51,974 nt of DNA from Corallococcus terminator (GTDB lineage Bacteria; Myxococcota; Myxococcia; Myxococcales; Myxococcaceae), in NCBI RefSeq assembly GCF_003611635.1, contig NZ_RAVZ01000018.1, forward strand, positions 1-51,974. Reading direction: 5' to 3'. The position numbers and the translations under genes were made by a program. A model generated the notes under the pieces. That model did no database searches. It saw nothing but the letters and a program-made list of their open reading frames with translations, and had not been told where the DNA came from. Positions 12,775 through 27,787 of the stretch are shown piece after piece; position 1 is the stretch's first letter, and every line of letters starts with the position of its first letter.

Positions 12775-13110
12775 ACGGCTCGGCGCCAGTGATACAGGAA
12801 GGACGCGTCGGGAACGAAGCTGGGCATGTCCTGTCTCTGCAATTGCGTTCCGGCGAGGACCCCCAGGACCACGGACCCCCGTGGACCCATGAACCGCGCG
12901 CCCGCCGTCGCGAAGGCGAACGCGTCGGCCCTGGCCCGCACCGGTGAGACGGCGACCTCTCCCGTGAGCCCCCAGTGCTCCCCCATGCGCAGGAAGCAGC
13001 ACCATCACGCCCCCCCATCTTGGTCAGAAGCCCAGGCGTAGAGGGGCTGGATCGTGAGGGAGAGGTTCGCGTCGGCCGTCCCATGGGTGTGGGTGCTGTA
13101 GGCGGCGCTA
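12775..13110 (-). pseudogene. Decayed 3' fragment of an outer-membrane-type protein, paralogue of the gene at 16945-17709
   Basis: The minus strand encodes pieces matching the C-terminal part of the intact gene 4 kb away. One frame gives HGTADANLSLTIQP and YAWASDQDG (intact: YGTGDAHVSLTVQP, FVAWGSF). A second frame gives VMVLLP, and a third gives MGEHWGLTGEV, FATAGARFMG and FLYHWR (intact: LGEHWGLAGEV, FATAGARFMG, FLFHWR). At least two frameshifts separate them, one at a run of seven C (13010-13016), and a few codons after VMVL are missing. The 5' half is absent or unrecognisable, and the reading frame runs past the normal HWR end. The rest of the 12755-13290 interval shows no supportable gene. 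Confidence 0.75.
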
Positions 13111-13370: not shown

Positions 13371-16300
13371 GTGATTTTGAAACTCGGAAGACTTTCCGCG
13401 GCACTCCTATGTCTTGTGGGGCCCCTTGCCTGTGATGGTGACAGGGCTTTGGAAGCGGAGGCTGGCGACTTCCTCGCCCAGGCGGAGGCCGCCCTCGACG
13501 GGGGCGGCGCGGTGGAACTGGAGTCGAACGTGCTGAAGGGCACGGTGCGCCTCACCAACGCGAACCCGCAGGTGCTGGCGATGCTGGCGACGGACGCTTG
13601 GCGCAATGGCTCCGGCACTGTTTCCGCGACGAGCAGCACGCCCACGGGGTTCGGCGCGAGCACCGGCTCGCTCGTGTCCGTCAGTCCCTCGGAGTACCGC
13701 TTCGAGATGCTGGTCGAAGCAGGAGCCCGGGGCGACCTGGGCGTTGTCTACACCGTCAATGCCACTCGCGGAAACTACAGCTTTCCCGGCCTGTCCGGGG
13801 TGACGGTCCAGCCCGTGGCGGCGCAGCCCGCGCCCACGGAGGTCACCCTCCAGAGCTGCATTGGCGTGGTCGAGTACCAGCTCGGAACGGATGCGACCTG
13901 CCAGACCCCCGCGACGGTCGCCGGGGTCTCGGTCTCCAACCTGTCCCTCCACGTCCCTTCCACGGGCCTGTACAGAAGCTACATCACCCCCGTCGCCCGG
14001 AGCGCCACGCTCATCTACCGCATCAACACGCCCACGGGGCCGGTGTTGACCGAGATCCCCGTGCAGGTCGCGGCTGGCTGCGATGAGGTCGTCCGCACGT
14101 GCATCCCCGTGACGACCCCGGTTCCTCCCGTGGTCGGCCATGCGACCGGGGCATTCGAGATCCACGATGCACGGGTCCTCTACTCCAAGAGCATGTCCTT
14201 CTCCGGACCCGACAGTCGAAGCCTGTCCCTGCCCGGACCCTGGTCCCCGGTGAGCAGTCCGGCCACCTGGTGGACGGTGCCCAACCTGCCCGTGGGGGCC
14301 TATGCGGTGGATGCCGCAGCGTACCTGGGAACGGGCCGGAACTTCACCGTGTACAACGCGCCCAGCCTCCCCAGCACCCTGTCCATCACGGAGGGACAGA
14401 CGAGCTTGCTGACGCGGCAGGTGGGCGGGGTGACACGTCACGCTTATGACATGCACCCCGCGTATTTCTATGGCTCCGTCCAACTGGCGGATCCCTACAT
14501 GCGGCAGCATCCGGGCGCGTGGAGCTCCCTGCAGGCGCTCTTCTTCGAGGCGGACCAGGACACCAACGGTGATGGGGTGCCCAACAACATCAGCATTTCC
14601 GCGAAGGGGACCTACCTCTCGGCCGTCGCCAACGGGGGACTCAGCTACACCGCCTTTCCCGGCACCTTCAATCCGAGCCTTGGCGAGCTGGCTTCCACCA
14701 CGCCCTATGAGCAGGTGTTGCCGAGCCCCTACGATCTACCCACCACCTGGTCCCAGAACGGGCTCGTCTTGAACTTCTGGTCCGAACCGCTGATCAACAA
14801 CGCCTTCACCACCCGACCGGGCCTGTACGACCCGGCGCGCTTCCGCTATGGCCTGCTCACGACCCGCTCGTCGGCGGTCAGCGCCTACAGCGTCGTCCTG
14901 AATCCCGAGCAGCGTTTCCGCATCGACCACGAATACTGCTTCAACGAAGTGCAGGTGGCGTACTCCGCCACCCTGGGGCGCTTCTTCAATCCCAGGGCCG
15001 ATGTGTCCGGGAGTTTCAGCGGCATGGACTGGCGCAATCAGTCGGTGTCGTACGTGACGAGCGCCTTCTTCTATGGCACGCCCGCGGTCTGGAACTTCCC
15101 GAACCCCGCCACGTATGCGGAGACCAGCGGGCAGATCTCCCTGTCGCTCCCCCAGGGCACCTTCACCCTCAGGCCCAGTGCCTCCATGGTGAGTGATTCG
15201 GGCACGGTGAATACCGCCAGCTTCGCACCCATTGGCGTGACGCTGGGCTGCGGGCAGCGCATCAAGCTGGTGCCCCCGTTGGCGGTGAGCCTGGCCTCAC
15301 TGGAAGGCTGCGCCACCTCGGATTCCAAGCAGGTCTCCGGGCAGGTGAAGAGCCGGCCCGCGGAAGTGGATCGGATTTGGTACCGCCTCAACGACGGCCC
15401 GGAAGTCACGCTCTGCACCAACTGCGGCTTCGACCCGACCTTCGCCTTCACCGTGCCGTTGCAGACCTGCGACAACAGCATCCAGGTCTTCGCCTACACG
15501 GAAGGGATGAGCGAGCCGGCCAGCGCCGTCGAACAGCTCGTCTGGGACGATGCGGCGGACGGCCCGAGCTGCCCCGGCTCCTTCTGCGTCAACCGGCCGC
15601 CGGTGGCCCGCTGCCGCAACCTGACGGTGGCCGCGAATGGGACGTGCGGCGGGTGGGCGTCGGTGAATGACGGCTCCTACGACCCGGACACGGGCGACAC
15701 CGTGGAGTGTGTGCAGACTCCGGCCCCGCAGTACCCGCTGGGCTCGCACCCGGCGACGCTGACGTGCACGGACAGCACGGGCCTGAGCTCCTCGTGTGAA
15801 GGCACGGTGACGGTCCGGGATGAAACGCCGCCGCAGCTTGCATGTGCACCCGTTCCGGAGCAGGAGTGCAGCGCGGGCGGTGCGACGGTCAACCTCGCGA
15901 CGACGGCCACGGACACCTGCAGCACGGTGACGACCACCTGCACCCCGGTGTCCGGCGGCATCTTCCCTCCGGGGACCACCACCGCCACCTGCACCGCCAC
16001 CGACGGCGCCGGCAATGGCGTCAGTTGCACCGTGCCGGTGACGGTGCGTGACACGCACCCGCCCACCATCACGTGCCCGGCGCCCATCCGCATTGAGCGC
16101 ACGGGGCCGGATGGCGCCACGGTGACGCCGGGCGTGGCCACCGCGAGCGATACCTGTGCGCCGCCCCAGGTGACGGGCCCGGCCGCGGGCACGTACCCGG
16201 TGGGCACCACGACGGTGACGTACACGGCCACCGACGTCGGAGGACATCAGGCCAGCTGCACGTCCACCATCCAGGTGACGGACAGCCAGTTCACGGACCC

Positions 16301-16886
16301 GCCGAACGTGACGATGTGCAACCTGCCGCGCTACACGCGGGAGACGACGCTGATGGCGTGCGGCTGGACGACGCCCCAGCCCAATGCCGCGCCCGTCGCC
16401 TCCGCCTCCTTCCGGGTGGATGGAGGGGCGGCCATCCCGGTGACGCCGGACCTGAGCGGAGGCTTCGTCATCACCTGGCTGCCGCTGGCGGAAGGCACCC
16501 ACGTCATCGAACTGACCGCCATCGACACGCGAGGGGCCACCACCCACAAGCAAATGACGGTGACGGTGGACCTCACGCCGCCCGTGCTCACCCTCCTCTC
16601 GCCGCTGCCGGATGTGTCGCTCGCGAGCCCGGTGGTGACCGTGACGTCCTCCGTCCAGGACGTCTCCCCCACGACGGTGACGACCCAGTGGCTCCAGACG
16701 AGCACGGTGGACAGTGGCACGGGGCAGGTCAACCACACGGTGGATCTGTTCAACCGGGGCTTCGTGCCACTGATGGTGACGGCCACGGACGCCGCAGGCA
16801 ACACCACGCAGCTCCTGACGCAGGTCTTCATCGAGCCGGCTCCGCCTGCCGTGCTCGCGCAGGGGCCGTCCGCGAGCGCCCGGTAG
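13371..16886 (+). CDS. Large surface lipoprotein with HYR-like repeats
   Basis: 1171 residues from the GTG at 13371. AGGTGA lies only three bases upstream, so a TTG at 13377 with nine-base spacing is an alternative. The N-terminus (LSAALLCLVGPLAC) is a lipoprotein signal with the Cys at about residue 21. Residues 40-740 are beta-rich with two cysteine pairs and no family I can name. Residues about 741-975 hold three consecutive HYR-like modules, each with a TCTDSTG- or TATDVGG-type core, YPLG or YPVG turn and spaced cysteines. A last Ig-like part follows. HYR modules act in adhesion (known). The gene sits between a decayed and an intact copy of another gene family and has its own promoter. 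Confidence 0.85.
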   Translation: MILKLGRLSAALLCLVGPLACDGDRALEAEAGDFLAQAEAALDGGGAVELESNVLKGTVRLTNANPQVLAMLATDAWRNGSGTVSATSSTPTGFGASTGSLVSVSPSEYRFEMLVEAGARGDLGVVYTVNATRGNYSFPGLSGVTVQPVAAQPAPTEVTLQSCIGVVEYQLGTDATCQTPATVAGVSVSNLSLHVPSTGLYRSYITPVARSATLIYRINTPTGPVLTEIPVQVAAGCDEVVRTCIPVTTPVPPVVGHATGAFEIHDARVLYSKSMSFSGPDSRSLSLPGPWSPVSSPATWWTVPNLPVGAYAVDAAAYLGTGRNFTVYNAPSLPSTLSITEGQTSLLTRQVGGVTRHAYDMHPAYFYGSVQLADPYMRQHPGAWSSLQALFFEADQDTNGDGVPNNISISAKGTYLSAVANGGLSYTAFPGTFNPSLGELASTTPYEQVLPSPYDLPTTWSQNGLVLNFWSEPLINNAFTTRPGLYDPARFRYGLLTTRSSAVSAYSVVLNPEQRFRIDHEYCFNEVQVAYSATLGRFFNPRADVSGSFSGMDWRNQSVSYVTSAFFYGTPAVWNFPNPATYAETSGQISLSLPQGTFTLRPSASMVSDSGTVNTASFAPIGVTLGCGQRIKLVPPLAVSLASLEGCATSDSKQVSGQVKSRPAEVDRIWYRLNDGPEVTLCTNCGFDPTFAFTVPLQTCDNSIQVFAYTEGMSEPASAVEQLVWDDAADGPSCPGSFCVNRPPVARCRNLTVAANGTCGGWASVNDGSYDPDTGDTVECVQTPAPQYPLGSHPATLTCTDSTGLSSSCEGTVTVRDETPPQLACAPVPEQECSAGGATVNLATTATDTCSTVTTTCTPVSGGIFPPGTTTATCTATDGAGNGVSCTVPVTVRDTHPPTITCPAPIRIERTGPDGATVTPGVATASDTCAPPQVTGPAAGTYPVGTTTVTYTATDVGGHQASCTSTIQVTDSQFTDPPNVTMCNLPRYTRETTLMACGWTTPQPNAAPVASASFRVDGGAAIPVTPDLSGGFVITWLPLAEGTHVIELTAIDTRGATTHKQMTVTVDLTPPVLTLLSPLPDVSLASPVVTVTSSVQDVSPTTVTTQWLQTSTVDSGTGQVNHTVDLFNRGFVPLMVTATDAAGNTTQLLTQVFIEPAPPAVLAQGPSASAR

Positions 16887-16944: not shown

Positions 16945-17709
16945 TCAGCGCCAGTGAAACAGGAACGAGCCCCCGGGAAGCACGGAGGGCTTGTCCGTGT
17001 CCTTCCATTGCTGCTCGGCGAGGAGCCCCAGGTCCAGGGACCAATGCTGTCCCATGAACCGCGCCCCCGCCGTCGCGAAGCCGAACGCGCCGCTGATGCC
17101 ATTGATTGGTGAGAGGGCGACCTCCCCCGCGAGGCCCCAGTGCTCCCCCAGCCGGACGAAGCCCCCCAGCATGGGCAGCACCATCACGCTCCCCGAGTGG
17201 AAGCTTCCCCAGGCGACGAAGGGTTGGACCGTGAGCGACACGTGGGCGTCGCCCGTCCCATAGGTGAGGATGCCGTAGGCCCCGACGGCATTGATGGTGT
17301 CCAACAGGTAGAGGTCGGTGTCGAAGCTGCCGCCCTGCACCCCGAACGCCAGATGCAGCTTGTCGCTCAAGGGCCGCGAGACCTTGAGACCCGCCATCAG
17401 GCTGAAGGGGATGTCGCTGAAGAGCCGGGCCATCGCGTAGACGGGGAAGGCCGACGCCACGCTCAAGGACACGCGCTCGCTCAGGCCCACCTCCGCGACG
17501 GTGGCGAACACCGCCTGCTGTCCGAAGAGGCCCTCTCCCGCATGCAGCGGGAGCGCGGTCGAACCCAGCAAGCCGCGCGTGCGGGTGGGGTTCTCGAACC
17601 AGCCCCTGTCCGACGAGGTCTGGGGTGCGTCTTCGACCGGCTCCCCGGCGCCGGCCGATGCGCCGGGAAGGACCAGCCACAACAGCATCAGCCAACTGAA
17701 ACGCGGCAT
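16945..17709 (-). CDS. Outer-membrane beta-barrel-like protein of unknown function
   Basis: 254 residues from the ATG at 17709, chosen because it directly precedes a signal peptide (MPRFSWLMLLWLVLPGASAG) and follows a GAGGGGGAAG purine run. The frame is open 15 codons further up. After a short acidic linker the mature part alternates hydrophobic and polar residues with Gly turns (VSLSVASAFPVYA, AGLKVSRPLSDKLHLAFGV, HVSLTVQPFVAWGSF) and ends in an aromatic strand (GSFLFHWR), as expected for an 8- to 12-strand barrel. A broken paralogue lies at 12775-13110 in the same orientation. Function unknown. Confidence 0.8.
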   Translation of the reverse strand: MPRFSWLMLLWLVLPGASAGAGEPVEDAPQTSSDRGWFENPTRTRGLLGSTALPLHAGEGLFGQQAVFATVAEVGLSERVSLSVASAFPVYAMARLFSDIPFSLMAGLKVSRPLSDKLHLAFGVQGGSFDTDLYLLDTINAVGAYGILTYGTGDAHVSLTVQPFVAWGSFHSGSVMVLPMLGGFVRLGEHWGLAGEVALSPINGISGAFGFATAGARFMGQHWSLDLGLLAEQQWKDTDKPSVLPGGSFLFHWR

Positions 17710-17894
17710 CGTCACTTCCCCCTCATGGTGGCGCGCTCCATAGGCAACACCCATGCCAGAAGGGGCTCTCCGAGCTGAAGACGGAGCCTTCGCTCCGCCG
17801 CGCTCCCATGGCTCCGGACACGTGCGTCATGGCACCACGAATTCACGAGTGCCCTGTCGTATCCCCCGAACGCACGGAGGCGCCGGGGAAACGC

Positions 17895-22269: not shown

Positions 22270-22477
22270 GCGAACCCCCGAAGGAGAATCTCCGCGCCCG
22301 GGTGCCTGCTCCGCCCCCAAGGCGCACACCAGAGGGTAGGACCTCGGTCCACGCACGGCAGCGGACGCTCGGCACGCTCGCAGGCCGGTGCGGGCCTGGG
22401 TGCCCCGCGGGGCCGGGCAGGGAAGCCTCCTCCGGGCCGTCTCTTGAAGCCTCCTGAGCGCCTCCCAGATTCCCTTC

Positions 22478-22744
22478 ATGGAACTCCTGGTGGTCCCCCT
22501 CCAACCCCGCTTCGAACAGCTCCTCAGGGAACAGTTGCGTCGGCTGGCGACGACGATGACGCGCGAGCAGTTGGTCCAGCTCCGGTTGGAGCAACTGTAT
22601 GACTGGGAGAAGGTGGAGGACCCCGTCACGCGCCGCTTCTTCCGTGCTTCCACCCTGGTGTGGACCCCTGAGGAATTGAAGGCACTCGTCGAGGCCACCC
22701 TGAGTGCGTACCTGCCCGAAGACGGACGGGAGGGGGTCCACTGA
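22478..22744 (+). CDS. Small helical protein, first gene of the PLD cluster
   Basis: 88 residues, no signal peptide. Charged and helical (FEQLLREQLRRLATTM; EQLVQLRLEQLYDWEKV), with a C-terminal helix after TPEELKALVEATLSAYL. No family recognised. Its stop overlaps the next start (TGATG at 22742-22746), so the pair is coupled. Its small size and position as the leader of a nuclease-like cluster suggest an accessory or regulatory subunit, but this is inference. Confidence 0.7.
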   Translation: MELLVVPLQPRFEQLLREQLRRLATTMTREQLVQLRLEQLYDWEKVEDPVTRRFFRASTLVWTPEELKALVEATLSAYLPEDGREGVH

Positions 22745-22947
22745 TGGGCTATCCCAACCTCGGCAACTACGCGGACATGCTCCACCTGGACCCGGAGTTC
22801 GACCCCAACGCCCTGCCAGGCGACGGCACGTCCATCGACCTGTTCGACTTCGGCGACCCCTACGCGCCCACCAGCCCGGAGGACCAGGCACGGCTGGATT
22901 TCGAACGGATGCTCCAACTGCTGCTCGATGAAGCAGGCAGCATGTAG
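22744..22947 (+). CDS. Very acidic small protein, second gene of the PLD cluster
   Basis: 67 residues with roughly a fifth Asp/Glu and only two Arg, so strongly negative. The sequence has an extended acidic, Pro-containing first half (DPEFDPNALPGDGTSIDLFDFGDPY) and a C-terminal helix (LDFERMLQLLLDEAG). No family recognised. It is coupled to both neighbours. Acidic small proteins next to nucleases sometimes mimic DNA or act as inhibitors; nothing in the sequence proves that here. Confidence 0.65.
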   Translation: MGYPNLGNYADMLHLDPEFDPNALPGDGTSIDLFDFGDPYAPTSPEDQARLDFERMLQLLLDEAGSM

Positions 22948-22961
22948 CGAGGAAGTCCCCC

Positions 22962-23255
22962 ATGCCCATGCCCCCTGCATACGAACGGCTGGAAGCCATC
23001 GAGGACCTGCTGGAGGAGCACCGCCTGCTCATCCACGAACAGCTCGCGACGCTCTCCTGGCAGGAGGTGGCGCTGGTCTTCCAGGCCGAACAGGCCGCGA
23101 AGGCGAAGACCCCGTCGGAGAAGGAGGCGGCGCCACGGGTCTCCCTGGCGCTGGCGGCGTACCAGGACTTCACGCGCCGGTTGCTCCTCACCTACCGCCA
23201 CTATGAGCAGGGATTGCGGGAGCGGCTGGCGGCCCTGACCCCGGAGGCGCCATGA
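22962..23255 (+). CDS. Small helical protein, third gene of the PLD cluster
   Basis: 97 residues from the ATG at 22962 after GAGGAAG; an ATG six bases later is an alternative. It is almost entirely helical and charged (YERLEAIEDLLEEHRLLIHEQL; FQAEQAAKAKTPSEKEAA; DFTRRLLLTYRHYEQGLRERL), likely a coiled coil or helical bundle. Its stop overlaps the next start by ATGA. No family recognised. Confidence 0.68.
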   Translation: MPMPPAYERLEAIEDLLEEHRLLIHEQLATLSWQEVALVFQAEQAAKAKTPSEKEAAPRVSLALAAYQDFTRRLLLTYRHYEQGLRERLAALTPEAP

Positions 23256-23776
23256 ACTTCGAGGCCTTTCCCGTGTCTGAAGGCATGCTGCTCCACGACG
23301 GGGACTATGCGCCCTTCGCGGCGAGCTGGTTCGCGCTGGCGCGCAAGCGGCTCTGGGTGTCTGTCTTCATCATCGACACGCGGGTGTTGAAGGATCCGCT
23401 GCGGTCGGTGCGGGGCCTGGTGGAGCAACTGGCCCAGGCGCGGTGGCGCAACGTGGACGTGCGGGTGCTGGTGGGGGTGTCGGACACGCCGGAGGTCCAC
23501 ATCGCCAACACCACCTCCGCGCTCTACATGCGGGAGCTGGGCCTGCCGGTGCGGCTCTTCCACTCCGAACGTCACGTGAGCACCCACAGCAAGTTCGTCA
23601 TCGTGGATGACCGGGTGTTGCTGGGCAGTCACAACTGGACGCACTCCGCCTTCCACGTGAGCCATGAGGATTCCCTGGCGGTGAACTCGCCGCAGCTCGC
23701 GATGGGGCTGGGGCGGGACTTCGATCGGCTCTGGGCCGAGGGCGCGCGGAAATCGGAGGCAGCCCATGCGTCCTGA
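23252..23776 (+). CDS. Single-HKD phospholipase-D-like protein (short form)
   Basis: 174 residues, cytoplasmic. One HKD motif: His112, Lys114, Asp119 (THSKFVIVDD), followed by GSHNWT (Gly125, Ser126, Asn128), as in the phospholipase D superfamily. PLD-fold enzymes with a single HKD, such as Nuc and BfiI, work as dimers that bring two motifs together (known). Members cleave nucleic acids or phospholipids; the lack of a signal peptide and the DNA-binding partner next door favour a nucleic-acid substrate. It overlaps the upstream gene by ATGA and the downstream gene by 11 bases, so the levels of the two PLD proteins are probably matched. Confidence 0.85.
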   Translation: MNFEAFPVSEGMLLHDGDYAPFAASWFALARKRLWVSVFIIDTRVLKDPLRSVRGLVEQLAQARWRNVDVRVLVGVSDTPEVHIANTTSALYMRELGLPVRLFHSERHVSTHSKFVIVDDRVLLGSHNWTHSAFHVSHEDSLAVNSPQLAMGLGRDFDRLWAEGARKSEAAHAS

Positions 23777-25100
23777 GTGGTTCGTGCCAATGGTGCGTGG
23801 CTGGTCGGAGCAGGTGCGGTGGGAGCCGGGCGAGCTGGAGCGGGCCACCGGGCTGCTGGTGGAGCTCAGCCGCGCGCAGGGCGGGGAGCTTGTCTTGGAT
23901 GAGGCGCCCGGCGAGGACGTCGCGCGCCAGTTCGCCCTGCGCCGCGCCCGGGAGGTGCTGCAACGGCGGATGAACCGTTACGTCCGTGCGCTGGAGGCAG
24001 GTGCCGCGTCCGCCCGCTACAGCAGGCCCGTGCGCGAGGAGGCCGACACGCCGGCGCTGCCCTTCGTGACTCCGCATGAGTGGGTGGACGTCCTGGAGGT
24101 GAACGCGGCCAGCGCGGAGGAACTGGAAGGACTGCCGGGGCTCGGGCGGGTGCTGGCGGAGCGCATCGTGCGCTACCGCCGAGCGCATGGCCCCTTCCTC
24201 ACGCTGGAGTCCCTGCTGCGGGTGGAGGGCCTGGGCGTGAAGGGGCTGGAGCAGCTTCGCGGGCGGATCCTCCTGGAGGAGCGTCCGCCGGTGTTCCGGA
24301 GCGAGGCGCTGGAGGCGTTCATCCAGGAGCCCTCCTTCGCCCGGTACGTGCAATGGGTGGCCGCCAGCGGAGGCTCGTTCATGTGGCGCCACGCGCGGGG
24401 ACAGGGCCCGGTGGCGCAGGTGCTGATGGAGCTGGAAGAGGCCCTGCGGGATGCGCGGGAGCATCCCTATGGAGTGGCAAGGCGTCTGGGGGCCACGCGG
24501 GCGAGCGTGGCGCGGACCGAACAGGAGCGGCTGGAGCAGGCCCGCGTCCACGCCGAGGAAGCCTCCGGCGCGGTCCGGACGGGTGTGCTGTTGAGGCACG
24601 GCCAGTACCCGGAGTTCGTGGAGCAACTGCTCTCAGGGGCGGCGCGCTCCGTGCGGGTCGTCCTCTTCTTCTTCCGGTACGTGGATGCGAAATACCCCAC
24701 GCATGGCCTGTTGCAACAGCTCATCGCGGCGCATGAGCGCGGCGTGGACGTCAAGGTCATCCTGGACCAGGACGCGAAGGGGGATGTCTATCATTCCCGC
24801 ATCATCAACCAGCCGGCCTTCCAGGCACTGACGGCCCGGAAGGTGCCGGTGCGCTACGATACTGTGAGCCGGCTCACGCACTCCAAGCTGGTGCTGGTGG
24901 ATGACAGGCACCTGGTGATGGGCAGCCACAACTGGACGTTGAGCTCGTTCACCCGCTACGACGAGGCGAGCCTGTACCTGGACTCGGAGCCGCTGGGCGC
25001 GCGGCTCGAAGAGCGCTTCCGGGCGCTGTGGACGGAGAAGGCGGAGCGGGAAGCCGCTGTCTCCCCCATGGCCGCTGAGTCCGCGGTGGCTGAACCCTGA
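23766..25100 (+). CDS. PLD-like protein with ComEA-type helix-hairpin-helix domain
   Basis: 444 residues. Residues 110-170 form two helix-hairpin-helix motifs of the ComEA type (EVNAASAEELEGLPGLG, then FLTLESLLRVEGLGVKG), which bind DNA non-specifically in known proteins. The C-terminal domain, from about residue 275, has one HKD: His372, Lys374, Asp379 (THSKLVLVDD) and GSHNW (386-390). It resembles the 174-residue neighbour closely around this motif. Residues 1-100 and 175-265 are helical with no recognised family. No signal peptide, so unlike true ComEA it is not surface-exposed. Inference: a DNA-bound nuclease or end-processing enzyme that may pair with the short PLD protein. Confidence 0.85.
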   Translation: MRPEWFVPMVRGWSEQVRWEPGELERATGLLVELSRAQGGELVLDEAPGEDVARQFALRRAREVLQRRMNRYVRALEAGAASARYSRPVREEADTPALPFVTPHEWVDVLEVNAASAEELEGLPGLGRVLAERIVRYRRAHGPFLTLESLLRVEGLGVKGLEQLRGRILLEERPPVFRSEALEAFIQEPSFARYVQWVAASGGSFMWRHARGQGPVAQVLMELEEALRDAREHPYGVARRLGATRASVARTEQERLEQARVHAEEASGAVRTGVLLRHGQYPEFVEQLLSGAARSVRVVLFFFRYVDAKYPTHGLLQQLIAAHERGVDVKVILDQDAKGDVYHSRIINQPAFQALTARKVPVRYDTVSRLTHSKLVLVDDRHLVMGSHNWTLSSFTRYDEASLYLDSEPLGARLEERFRALWTEKAEREAAVSPMAAESAVAEP

Positions 25101-25267: not shown

Positions 25268-27787
25268 ATGTCCGCCCTGCTCGACAGCGGCGTGCGCCGG
25301 GGCGCCGAGGTGCGCTGCCCCGGATGCACCCGCTTCATCCCGACCGACGTCGCCTGCCCGCACTGCCTCTGTGGCCCTGTCCCGCCGGAGCGCTACGGCG
25401 CCGCGCGGGAGCTGTTGAAGTCCGGGGTGGACCGCTTCGCCCTGGCCTCCCGCACCGCCGCGCTGGAGCCTTCCCAGGTGGAGGTCCTGGCGGCCCGCTA
25501 CGCGCGGCAGTGGGGCGTGGCGCTGTGGCTCATCGAGGACGCGCGGCGCATCGAGTCCCGGTTGCTGCAACGCGGCTTCGCGCGCGACATGGAGGACTCC
25601 TGGGCGGCCCAACTGCCCACGGACGAAGCCCTCCTCGCCGAACGCATCGCGCCCTTCAGCCCCCTGCCGGATTCGCTGGCGTACCTGTCGAGCAAGGCGC
25701 CGGACGCGGACCTGAGCAACATGGCGTCGCTCGCGTGGGTGCACGAAGGCACGTTCTCGGAGGACGCGCGCTCCACGGTGCGCTACCTGCTGCACCAGGA
25801 CGGACGCGTGGCGGTGGAGGCGATGCTGGCCCTGACGCGCTGGCGCAACGCCTTCCCCCTCCGGCTGACCCCCGAGGAGCGCGAGCGGATCCGCGTGCTG
25901 GCCCTGGGCGTGCTGGACGTGCCCGACATCGGCGCGCGCGCCGCGGTCGCCTGGACGCGCGTGTCCCGGGACGCGCCCCCCGCCGCCGTGTTGGCCGCGC
26001 TGCACCAGGGCCTGTACGGCAGCGACCTGGACGTGCGCTTCGAATGCGCGCTGAGCCTGCGGGACGAGGTGGAGGTGGCGCAGGCGCTGGACTCGCCCGA
26101 CGCGGACACCGTCACCTTCGTCCGGCGCATGCTGAGCGCGTGGGGCTCCGCGCTGCTCTTCCCCCGGCTGAAGCGCGAAGGCGATGAGCGCTTCGTGCAG
26201 GACGTGCTGAGAGACCTGCCCTTCCCTCCGCCCGAAGGGGCCCTGGAGGCGCTGCTCACCGTGTCCGTGCGCACCGTCGGCTCGCTCGCGGACGAGCTGC
26301 TGGGCTTCGCGAAGCGGCAGTCCTTCCACGCCTGGGGACTGGAGAACCAGCGGCGCTGGGCCCGCTGGGCGCGCTCGGTGCTGCGCGACCTGCCCGCGGA
26401 GACCGCGCTGCACTTCTTCGGCTGGGCCGCCACCCCGGGCGACAACGCCGAAGCTCCCGAGGAGGAGGAGACGGAGGCGATGTGGAGCTTCCTGGAGGAG
26501 ACGGTGCATGCGATTGACCGGGGCATGGAGAAGGACCGCATCGCCTGCTTCAAGGACTTCCTCTTCGTGCACTTCCTCCACCACGCGGGGGTGGACGAAC
26601 AGCGGCGGCTGAACGACTGGGCCCGCGACCCGCACAGCGGTGAGGCCCTGCTGGAAGCCCTGGTGATGTTCCCCTCGCGTCGCGAGCAGGCGCGCCTTCC
26701 CGCCTCCGGAGTCGAACACGCGGCCCGGCTGTTGATGGCGGTCTGGGAGGGCCCCGGCCAGCACCTGCTGGTGGCGCCCATGTCCCGTGTGGCGCGGCAG
26801 TGGAGCGCGTACTCCGGACGCGAGGTCCTGGTGGACGCCGTCTGGCAGCGCTTCCAATCCCATCCCTCCGAACGGAGCCTGCTGCTCGCCGCCTTCGCGA
26901 GCTGGCGCGACCGCCTGTGGGAGAAGCAGCGCGAGGCGGAGCCCGACGCCCTGGTGCGCTTCCAGATGTGGTGGCGCCTGGACCCCGTGGGCCTCTATCC
27001 CCACGCGGAGCCTCTGCTGGACGGTGCACCGCTGGAAGTCCTGCCCGCCAGGTTGCGAGCCCTCTGGGCGGCGGCGGAGGAGATCGTGGGCACGCGCCCG
27101 CGCACCGCGTCCCTCTCCGTCTCCAAGGGGGCCTGGGCGCTCTTGCGCGCGGTGGAGTCCGACGACCCCCGTTACATCCAGGAGATGGAGGCGGAACTGG
27201 CGTACTTCGAGTCGCGCCTGCCCGCCTTCGAGCAGCGCGTGCGCACCACGCCTTCGCCGCCGGAGGAGTCCAACATCCACCGCGACTTCCTGGACGACAC
27301 GCTCAATGCGCTGCGGATGATGCGCGAGCGCCGGGACCGCCGCCGCGCGCACGAGGAGCGCGAGCGCGAGCGTGAAATCGAACGGCAGGTGGCGGAGTCC
27401 CGCCGCCGCGACCAGCAGCGTCGGGCCGAGGAAGCCCGCGTCGCCGCCGAAGCGCTGGAGGCCGCCCGGCTCGTCGAACACGCACAGCAGCAGGCCCGGG
27501 CCCTGTCGGACGCCCGGCGCCTCATGACGGACCTCCAGCCCCAGGTGCCCGCGCGTCCCCTGGACCGGGAGGTGCTCTTCCCGGGCTCGGCGCTGCCCAC
27601 GCTCCTGCACTATGCGCGGATGCTCAAGGCGCTGCAGGGGGGCGCGGACGTGATGAAGCTCTTCGAGGTCGTGGGACTGACGCCCACCGCCTGGGCCACG
27701 CAGGCGAACGCGTGGGGCCAGATGATGGTGGGCCGGCCGGAGCTGGCCATCCGCTTCTCCGAACTGCTGCAGGCGCCCTGGGCGTGA
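25268..27787 (+). CDS. Large cytoplasmic protein: N-terminal zinc ribbon, helical repeats, coiled coil
   Basis: 839 residues, no signal peptide. Near the N-terminus CPGC (residues 18-21) and CPHC (35-38), with CxC nearby, form a treble-clef or zinc-ribbon-like site. Residues 60-640 are helical with a repeated look resembling HEAT/ARM scaffolds (LDVPDIGARAAVAWTRV; DLDVRFECALSLRDEVEVAQ), and Trp-rich helices continue. Residues about 690-750 are a highly charged Arg/Glu coiled coil (RRDRRRAHEEREREREIERQ). No catalytic motif or named family. It lies 167 bases downstream of the PLD cluster on the same strand; whether it belongs to it cannot be decided from sequence. Confidence 0.8.
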   Translation: MSALLDSGVRRGAEVRCPGCTRFIPTDVACPHCLCGPVPPERYGAARELLKSGVDRFALASRTAALEPSQVEVLAARYARQWGVALWLIEDARRIESRLLQRGFARDMEDSWAAQLPTDEALLAERIAPFSPLPDSLAYLSSKAPDADLSNMASLAWVHEGTFSEDARSTVRYLLHQDGRVAVEAMLALTRWRNAFPLRLTPEERERIRVLALGVLDVPDIGARAAVAWTRVSRDAPPAAVLAALHQGLYGSDLDVRFECALSLRDEVEVAQALDSPDADTVTFVRRMLSAWGSALLFPRLKREGDERFVQDVLRDLPFPPPEGALEALLTVSVRTVGSLADELLGFAKRQSFHAWGLENQRRWARWARSVLRDLPAETALHFFGWAATPGDNAEAPEEEETEAMWSFLEETVHAIDRGMEKDRIACFKDFLFVHFLHHAGVDEQRRLNDWARDPHSGEALLEALVMFPSRREQARLPASGVEHAARLLMAVWEGPGQHLLVAPMSRVARQWSAYSGREVLVDAVWQRFQSHPSERSLLLAAFASWRDRLWEKQREAEPDALVRFQMWWRLDPVGLYPHAEPLLDGAPLEVLPARLRALWAAAEEIVGTRPRTASLSVSKGAWALLRAVESDDPRYIQEMEAELAYFESRLPAFEQRVRTTPSPPEESNIHRDFLDDTLNALRMMRERRDRRRAHEEREREREIERQVAESRRRDQQRRAEEARVAAEALEAARLVEHAQQQARALSDARRLMTDLQPQVPARPLDREVLFPGSALPTLLHYARMLKALQGGADVMKLFEVVGLTPTAWATQANAWGQMMVGRPELAIRFSELLQAPWA

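Follow-up and report, generated by a model that had tools for sequence, protein, structure and literature searches.

Among the members of the phospholipase D (PLD) superfamily are lipases and cardiolipin synthases, and those of its nucleases that carry a single HKD motif are normally homodimers; most PLD-nuclease defence systems have, in addition, a motor or modification partner. HKD nucleases are recurrent effectors of defence systems (PMC12839542, PMC10853773), and AgaP, a toxic PLD protein held back by its operon partner, is used in immunity with pAgo (PMC11442185). Fusion of a ComEA-type helix-hairpin-helix (HHH, or HhH) region to DNase I confers better salt tolerance through affinity for DNA, and the known fusion partners of ComEA-type HhH include PLDc (PMC4777378).

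The window, the whole 51,974-nt stretch of Corallococcus terminator DNA that was analysed, contains at positions 22478-25100 five open reading frames, all on the plus strand, which encode proteins of 88, 67, 97, 174 and 444 amino acids. These are g1 (22478-22744), g2 (22744-22947), g3 (22962-23255), g4 or PLD1 (23252-23776) and g5 or PLD2 (23766-25100). The four tight junctions described by the first-pass annotation were all confirmed, namely TGATG (1-nt overlap), a 14-nt gap, ATGA (4-nt overlap) and an 11-nt overlap, and the three overlaps were retained in relatives at a protein identity of about 67-72%. Of the 24 pairs of adjacent same-strand genes in the window, about nine overlap or lie within 14 nt of one another; tight junctions are thus ordinary here and show an operon, nothing more. 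It is the co-inheritance of all five genes that sets this operon apart from an ordinary one.

The three small open reading frames are real genes, being both called by a codon model and conserved under purifying selection. An independent codon-usage gene caller selected all five frames (scores of 19, 29, 35, 53 and 117 for g1 to g5) with no overlapping alternative, and pairwise dN/dS against relatives was 0.08-0.56, the single outlier of 0.9 coming from the 67-residue g2. Minus-strand frames overlapping the five genes were dismissed on codon score and on conservation of the plus frame. Upstream, DNA homology to two of the relatives (G024 and G026) starts at position 22408, and alignment of the regions preceding the five known copies of the operon revealed 70 nt of strong conservation at 22408-22477 on the plus strand (GGCCGGGCAGGGAAGCC...GTCTCTTGAAG...; core GGCCGGGCAGGG), a candidate promoter or 5' UTR. 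Cysteine is absent from all five protein sequences, and no signal sequence or hydrophobic segment was apparent on inspection of them.

Both larger proteins belong to the phospholipase D (HKD) superfamily. Each chain contains one PLDc_2 stretch matching PF13091 above the gathering score (3e-18 for PLD1 and 2.4e-23 for PLD2), and both share the pattern HSKxxxxD, GSHN and a downstream glutamate: in PLD1, a 174-residue single-HKD protein, these are H112-x-K114-x4-D119, GSHN at 125-128 and E139, and in PLD2 they are H372, K374, D379, GSHN at 386-389 and E400, within a PLD domain spanning residues 287-422. PLD2 begins with a region of unknown fold, followed by an HHH domain at residues 111-168 (HHH_3, PF12836, 3.4e-18), a linker region and the PLD domain; an AlphaFold model built from four sequences reached a pLDDT of only 43 and was not used. 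That the two proteins are paralogous, as previously proposed, was borne out by 34.7% identity over 167 residues between PLD1 and the C-terminal domain of PLD2 (1.7e-17) and by a profile-profile probability of 98.9%. They are also each other's best match among the sampled PLD proteins of the genome, a comparison that covers sampled loci only. Loss of the HKD residues, which would have counted against the first-pass annotation, was not seen: both motifs are intact in every copy from the five carriers, HxKx4Dx6GSxN is invariant throughout, and in every carrier both PLDs keep GSxN and the downstream glutamate. Most of the solved structures related to the PLD domains are nucleases (Nuc, MitoPLD, PLD3/PLD4 and NucT), and the best relatives of the HHH domain are EEPD1 and ComEA. 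An HHH domain joined to a PLD domain with intact catalytic residues, on a chain in which neither a membrane nor a signal segment is apparent, is indicative of cytoplasmic DNA cleavage.

The small proteins were said to have no recognisable family, and searches agreed, with no credible Pfam, NCBIfam, PADLOC or PHROG match to g1, g2 or g3. g1 (pI 5.2) is 71-93% identical in four relatives; its match to ybiA (2.3e-3) spans 70 residues of ybiA, contains no known motif and was taken as chance. g2 is very acidic (pI 4.05; 14 D/E versus 2 K/R) and has an invariant IDLFDFG motif. g3 is predicted by AF2 to form a two-helix antiparallel hairpin (pLDDT 89.7), a predicted fold too common to be diagnostic; structure searches with it returned generic helical hairpins only, none with a Foldseek E below 0.001. 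An assignment of g3 to HEPN on the strength of an invariant R73-x6-H80 was dropped, as only two helices are predicted and no Pfam match was found, and weak matches to g3 in two other genomes (E of 0.006 and 0.008) adjoin unrelated genes.

Of 16 Corallococcus species genomes, exactly five carry the complete set of five genes, with gene order preserved, and every genome having such a PLD gene (5/5) also has the small genes, so that the expected co-occurrence holds. Searches with PLD2 and g3 in all 96 Myxococcaceae genomes (80 of them outside Corallococcus) yielded no further carrier, nor did g1, g3, PLD1 and PLD2 profiles against 195 Myxococcota genomes. A scan of genome contigs with two N-terminal peptide patterns, which detects close relatives only, identified C. 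praedator CA031B, C. sicarius CA040B and C. sp. CA053C as close relatives; in the Corallococcus pan-genome study (PMC6306037), these three named carriers belong to Group B. The operon is known from one genus only, which makes its conservation shallow. It was not found on plasmids or phages: a phage collection held no homologue, none was confirmed on viral contigs, and plasmid matches cover the PLD domain only, at about 25-33% identity.

Conserved anchors flank the site on both sides in each of the 16 Corallococcus genomes; they enclose 15-29 kb that varies from clade to clade. Seven genomes group together in the anchor tree (G000, G023, G025, G027, G021, G024 and G026), five of which carry the operon. 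G027, nested among the carriers, aligns as far as position 22382 and then has a fragment of another gene at the operon site; G021, the sister of carrier G026, has other genes there on an unbroken contig. The absence of the operon from two close relatives on contiguous sequence makes it a dispensable presence/absence unit, and since the operon tree matches the anchor tree for the carriers, at least two losses is the simplest reading. Between the two carrier subclades, DNA identity is 77% in the operon versus 88-91% in the anchors, and the operon neighbours differ; either the operon has evolved fast or one subclade has acquired a diverged version. Protein divergence in the operon exceeds that of neighbouring enzymes, and amino-acid change is high but constrained (omega mostly 0.1-0.55).

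The chromosomal region as a whole (window 12200-33700) is a gene-content hotspot of clade-specific accessory genes between conserved anchors. In the G027 hotspot a PAAR-like toxin-type gene adjoins a SUKH (SMI1/KNR4) immunity-type gene (L034:7722-9477). An HYR-domain secreted protein is present in one copy in the window (13449-16886), and G027 adds a broken second copy at the operon site (L033/L034). Related stretches at 16945-17759 and 12777-13107 surround a 254-residue protein family without a Pfam match, which is duplicated in the hotspot and has two tandem copies in G023. The first gene after the operon (25268-27787) encodes an 839-residue protein with no Pfam family, a possible N-terminal zinc-ribbon (CPGC/CPHC) and a charged, coiled-coil-like tail, and is present in all Corallococcus regions examined whose contig reaches that far.

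The genes neighbouring the operon encode an alpha/beta hydrolase, short-chain dehydrogenases, and HYR-domain and other secreted proteins, and in relatives they are transport or phosphatase genes. The first-pass annotation was right that no mobile or restriction gene lies beside the operon, there being no defence or mobile genes among the neighbours, and a mobile element was rejected for want of a tRNA, terminal repeats or an integrase. The defence-island setting that had been looked to for support did not materialise: the neighbours are metabolic or secreted, and PADLOC detected nothing convincing among twenty window proteins around the operon. No methylase, helicase, ATPase or defence gene was found in the operon or the surroundings tested.

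We tentatively favour a regulated PLD DNase module of the Nuc type that works inside the cell and is directed against foreign DNA. On this reading the five genes, inherited together as one operon, would encode a cytoplasmic machine for cleaving DNA, in which PLD1 and the HHH-armed PLD2 would assemble dimeric, Nuc-like phosphodiesterase active sites, probably metal-independent, while the ComEA-like HHH of PLD2 would hold on to the backbone of DNA whatever its sequence. Helical g3 and g1, along with the acidic g2, may act as structural or regulatory partners, such that host DNA would be spared until the nuclease is needed; foreign DNA, from phage or plasmid, would be the most likely target. Homology gives good support to the predicted DNase chemistry, and DNase activity, dimerisation and DNA binding by the HHH would be expected from family membership; that PLD1 and PLD2 might pair as a heterodimer, that the small proteins might be inhibitory and that the module might serve in defence are each proposals. 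Precedents in HhH-nuclease fusions, HKD defence effectors and a partner-restrained PLD favour this regulated DNase, as do the presence of all five genes together in each of the five carriers and the accessory pattern of two losses and divergence above that of neighbouring enzymes. It is weakened by the lack of a defence gene, methylase, helicase or ATPase nearby, by the lack of a phage-collection homologue and by confinement to one genus. Of the earlier proposal, which named a DNA-processing or defence function and left a lipid role open, the nuclease part is favoured over the lipase by homology, and the defence island was not found.

A less likely but serious rival is housekeeping-type DNA processing by a repair or recombination nuclease particular to this lineage, whose HHH arm would bring the PLD pair onto branched or damaged DNA, with the small proteins as subunits of the complex. 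PLD2 would then be functionally akin to HHH nucleases such as EEPD1; the HHH-plus-nuclease architecture, the ranking of EEPD1 and ComEA as best HHH relatives, the stable gene order and junctions and the missing defence-island context all suit this explanation. A core repair function would, however, be unusual for an operon that other members of the genus and family lack, that was lost at least twice and whose proteins evolve faster than neighbouring enzymes. Less probable still, though also a serious rival, is a toxin-antitoxin-like or inter-strain conflict locus, selfish or engaged in kin competition, in which toxic PLD nucleases are neutralised by at least one small upstream protein. The small genes do lie upstream of the nucleases and are translationally coupled to them, g2 is acidic enough that it could mimic DNA, the presence/absence pattern is compatible, and the PAAR-toxin/SUKH pair occupies the same region in G027; but three small proteins and two nucleases exceed a typical toxin-antitoxin pair, the proteins are without a secretion signal, PAAR, Rhs or other delivery domain, and plasmid or phage copies were not found. 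Hydrolysis or transfer of phospholipid head groups by the PLDs is highly improbable, for although the superfamily has its lipases and cardiolipin synthases and the top solved matches of the PLD domains include one bacterial phospholipase (7e0m), a DNA-binding HHH domain sits on the same chain, the short single-HKD form is that of Nuc and MitoPLD, models of cardiolipin synthase score far under cut-off and no membrane segments are apparent.

The operon has the look of an optional module for DNA processing or defence in a few related Corallococcus, which are predatory soil bacteria. Two diverged PLD copies that always occur together, one with a DNA arm, would constitute a natural split, asymmetric PLD nuclease, and the three co-inherited small proteins would be a source of new nuclease regulators. 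Were the regulated DNase that we favour indeed to restrict foreign DNA, these predatory bacteria would possess a defence module that has no motor. The more elaborate proposal of a five-component defence or conflict system, with an asymmetric PLD heterodimer bearing one HHH arm, three small controllers and no ATPase or modification enzyme, is for now doubtful.

Among described systems, the DrmC model of DISARM (NF038319) was the top-scoring named nuclease model for both PLDs, although its scores of 45.7 and 47.3 bits fall below the cut-off of 133 and do not identify either protein as DrmC. DrmC is, moreover, a single gene without an HHH, unlike the operon with its PLD2, and no DrmA helicase, DrmB or methyltransferase was present among PADLOC and Pfam matches of the window proteins tested. 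Matches to Mokosh (MkoB/MkoC) were limited to the PLD stretch of the 610- and 1136-position models, and assignment of the operon to any PADLOC system was rejected. PLD2 is not a ComEA: it matches HHH_3, but scores 52.1 against a cut-off of 53.1 for TIGR00426 and 48.5 against 152.35 for TIGR01259, and no SLBB domain or membrane anchor was seen in it. In DNaseTA of Thioalkalivibrio and in EEPD1, as in PLD2, a ComEA-like HhH is the DNA-binding arm of a nuclease, but their catalytic domain is of the EEP/DNase I type, whereas that of PLD2 is PLD; the HHH-PLD fusion itself has precedent, and no description of the block of two PLD and three unknown genes was found in the literature searched. AgaP-pAgo (APAP) resembles the operon in encoding a PLD-family protein in an operon, AgaP owing its toxicity to its catalytic residues and being held in check by its partner; no Argonaute is present here, where the partners are three small proteins without a known family. 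The closest likeness in the catalytic domain is to Nuc of pKM101 (PDB 1byr) and NucT: there is one HKD per chain, the HKD, GSxN and downstream glutamate are in register with Nuc (1byr alignment, 8.5e-9), and PLD1 is a short stand-alone PLD as they are. Neither protein is a NucT equivalog (PRK13912; 12-30 bits versus cut-offs of 211-351). Nuc and NucT are secreted, whereas the operon PLDs, with no apparent signal segment, are predicted to be cytoplasmic, and here two paralogues, one of them HHH-armed, share one operon with three small proteins.
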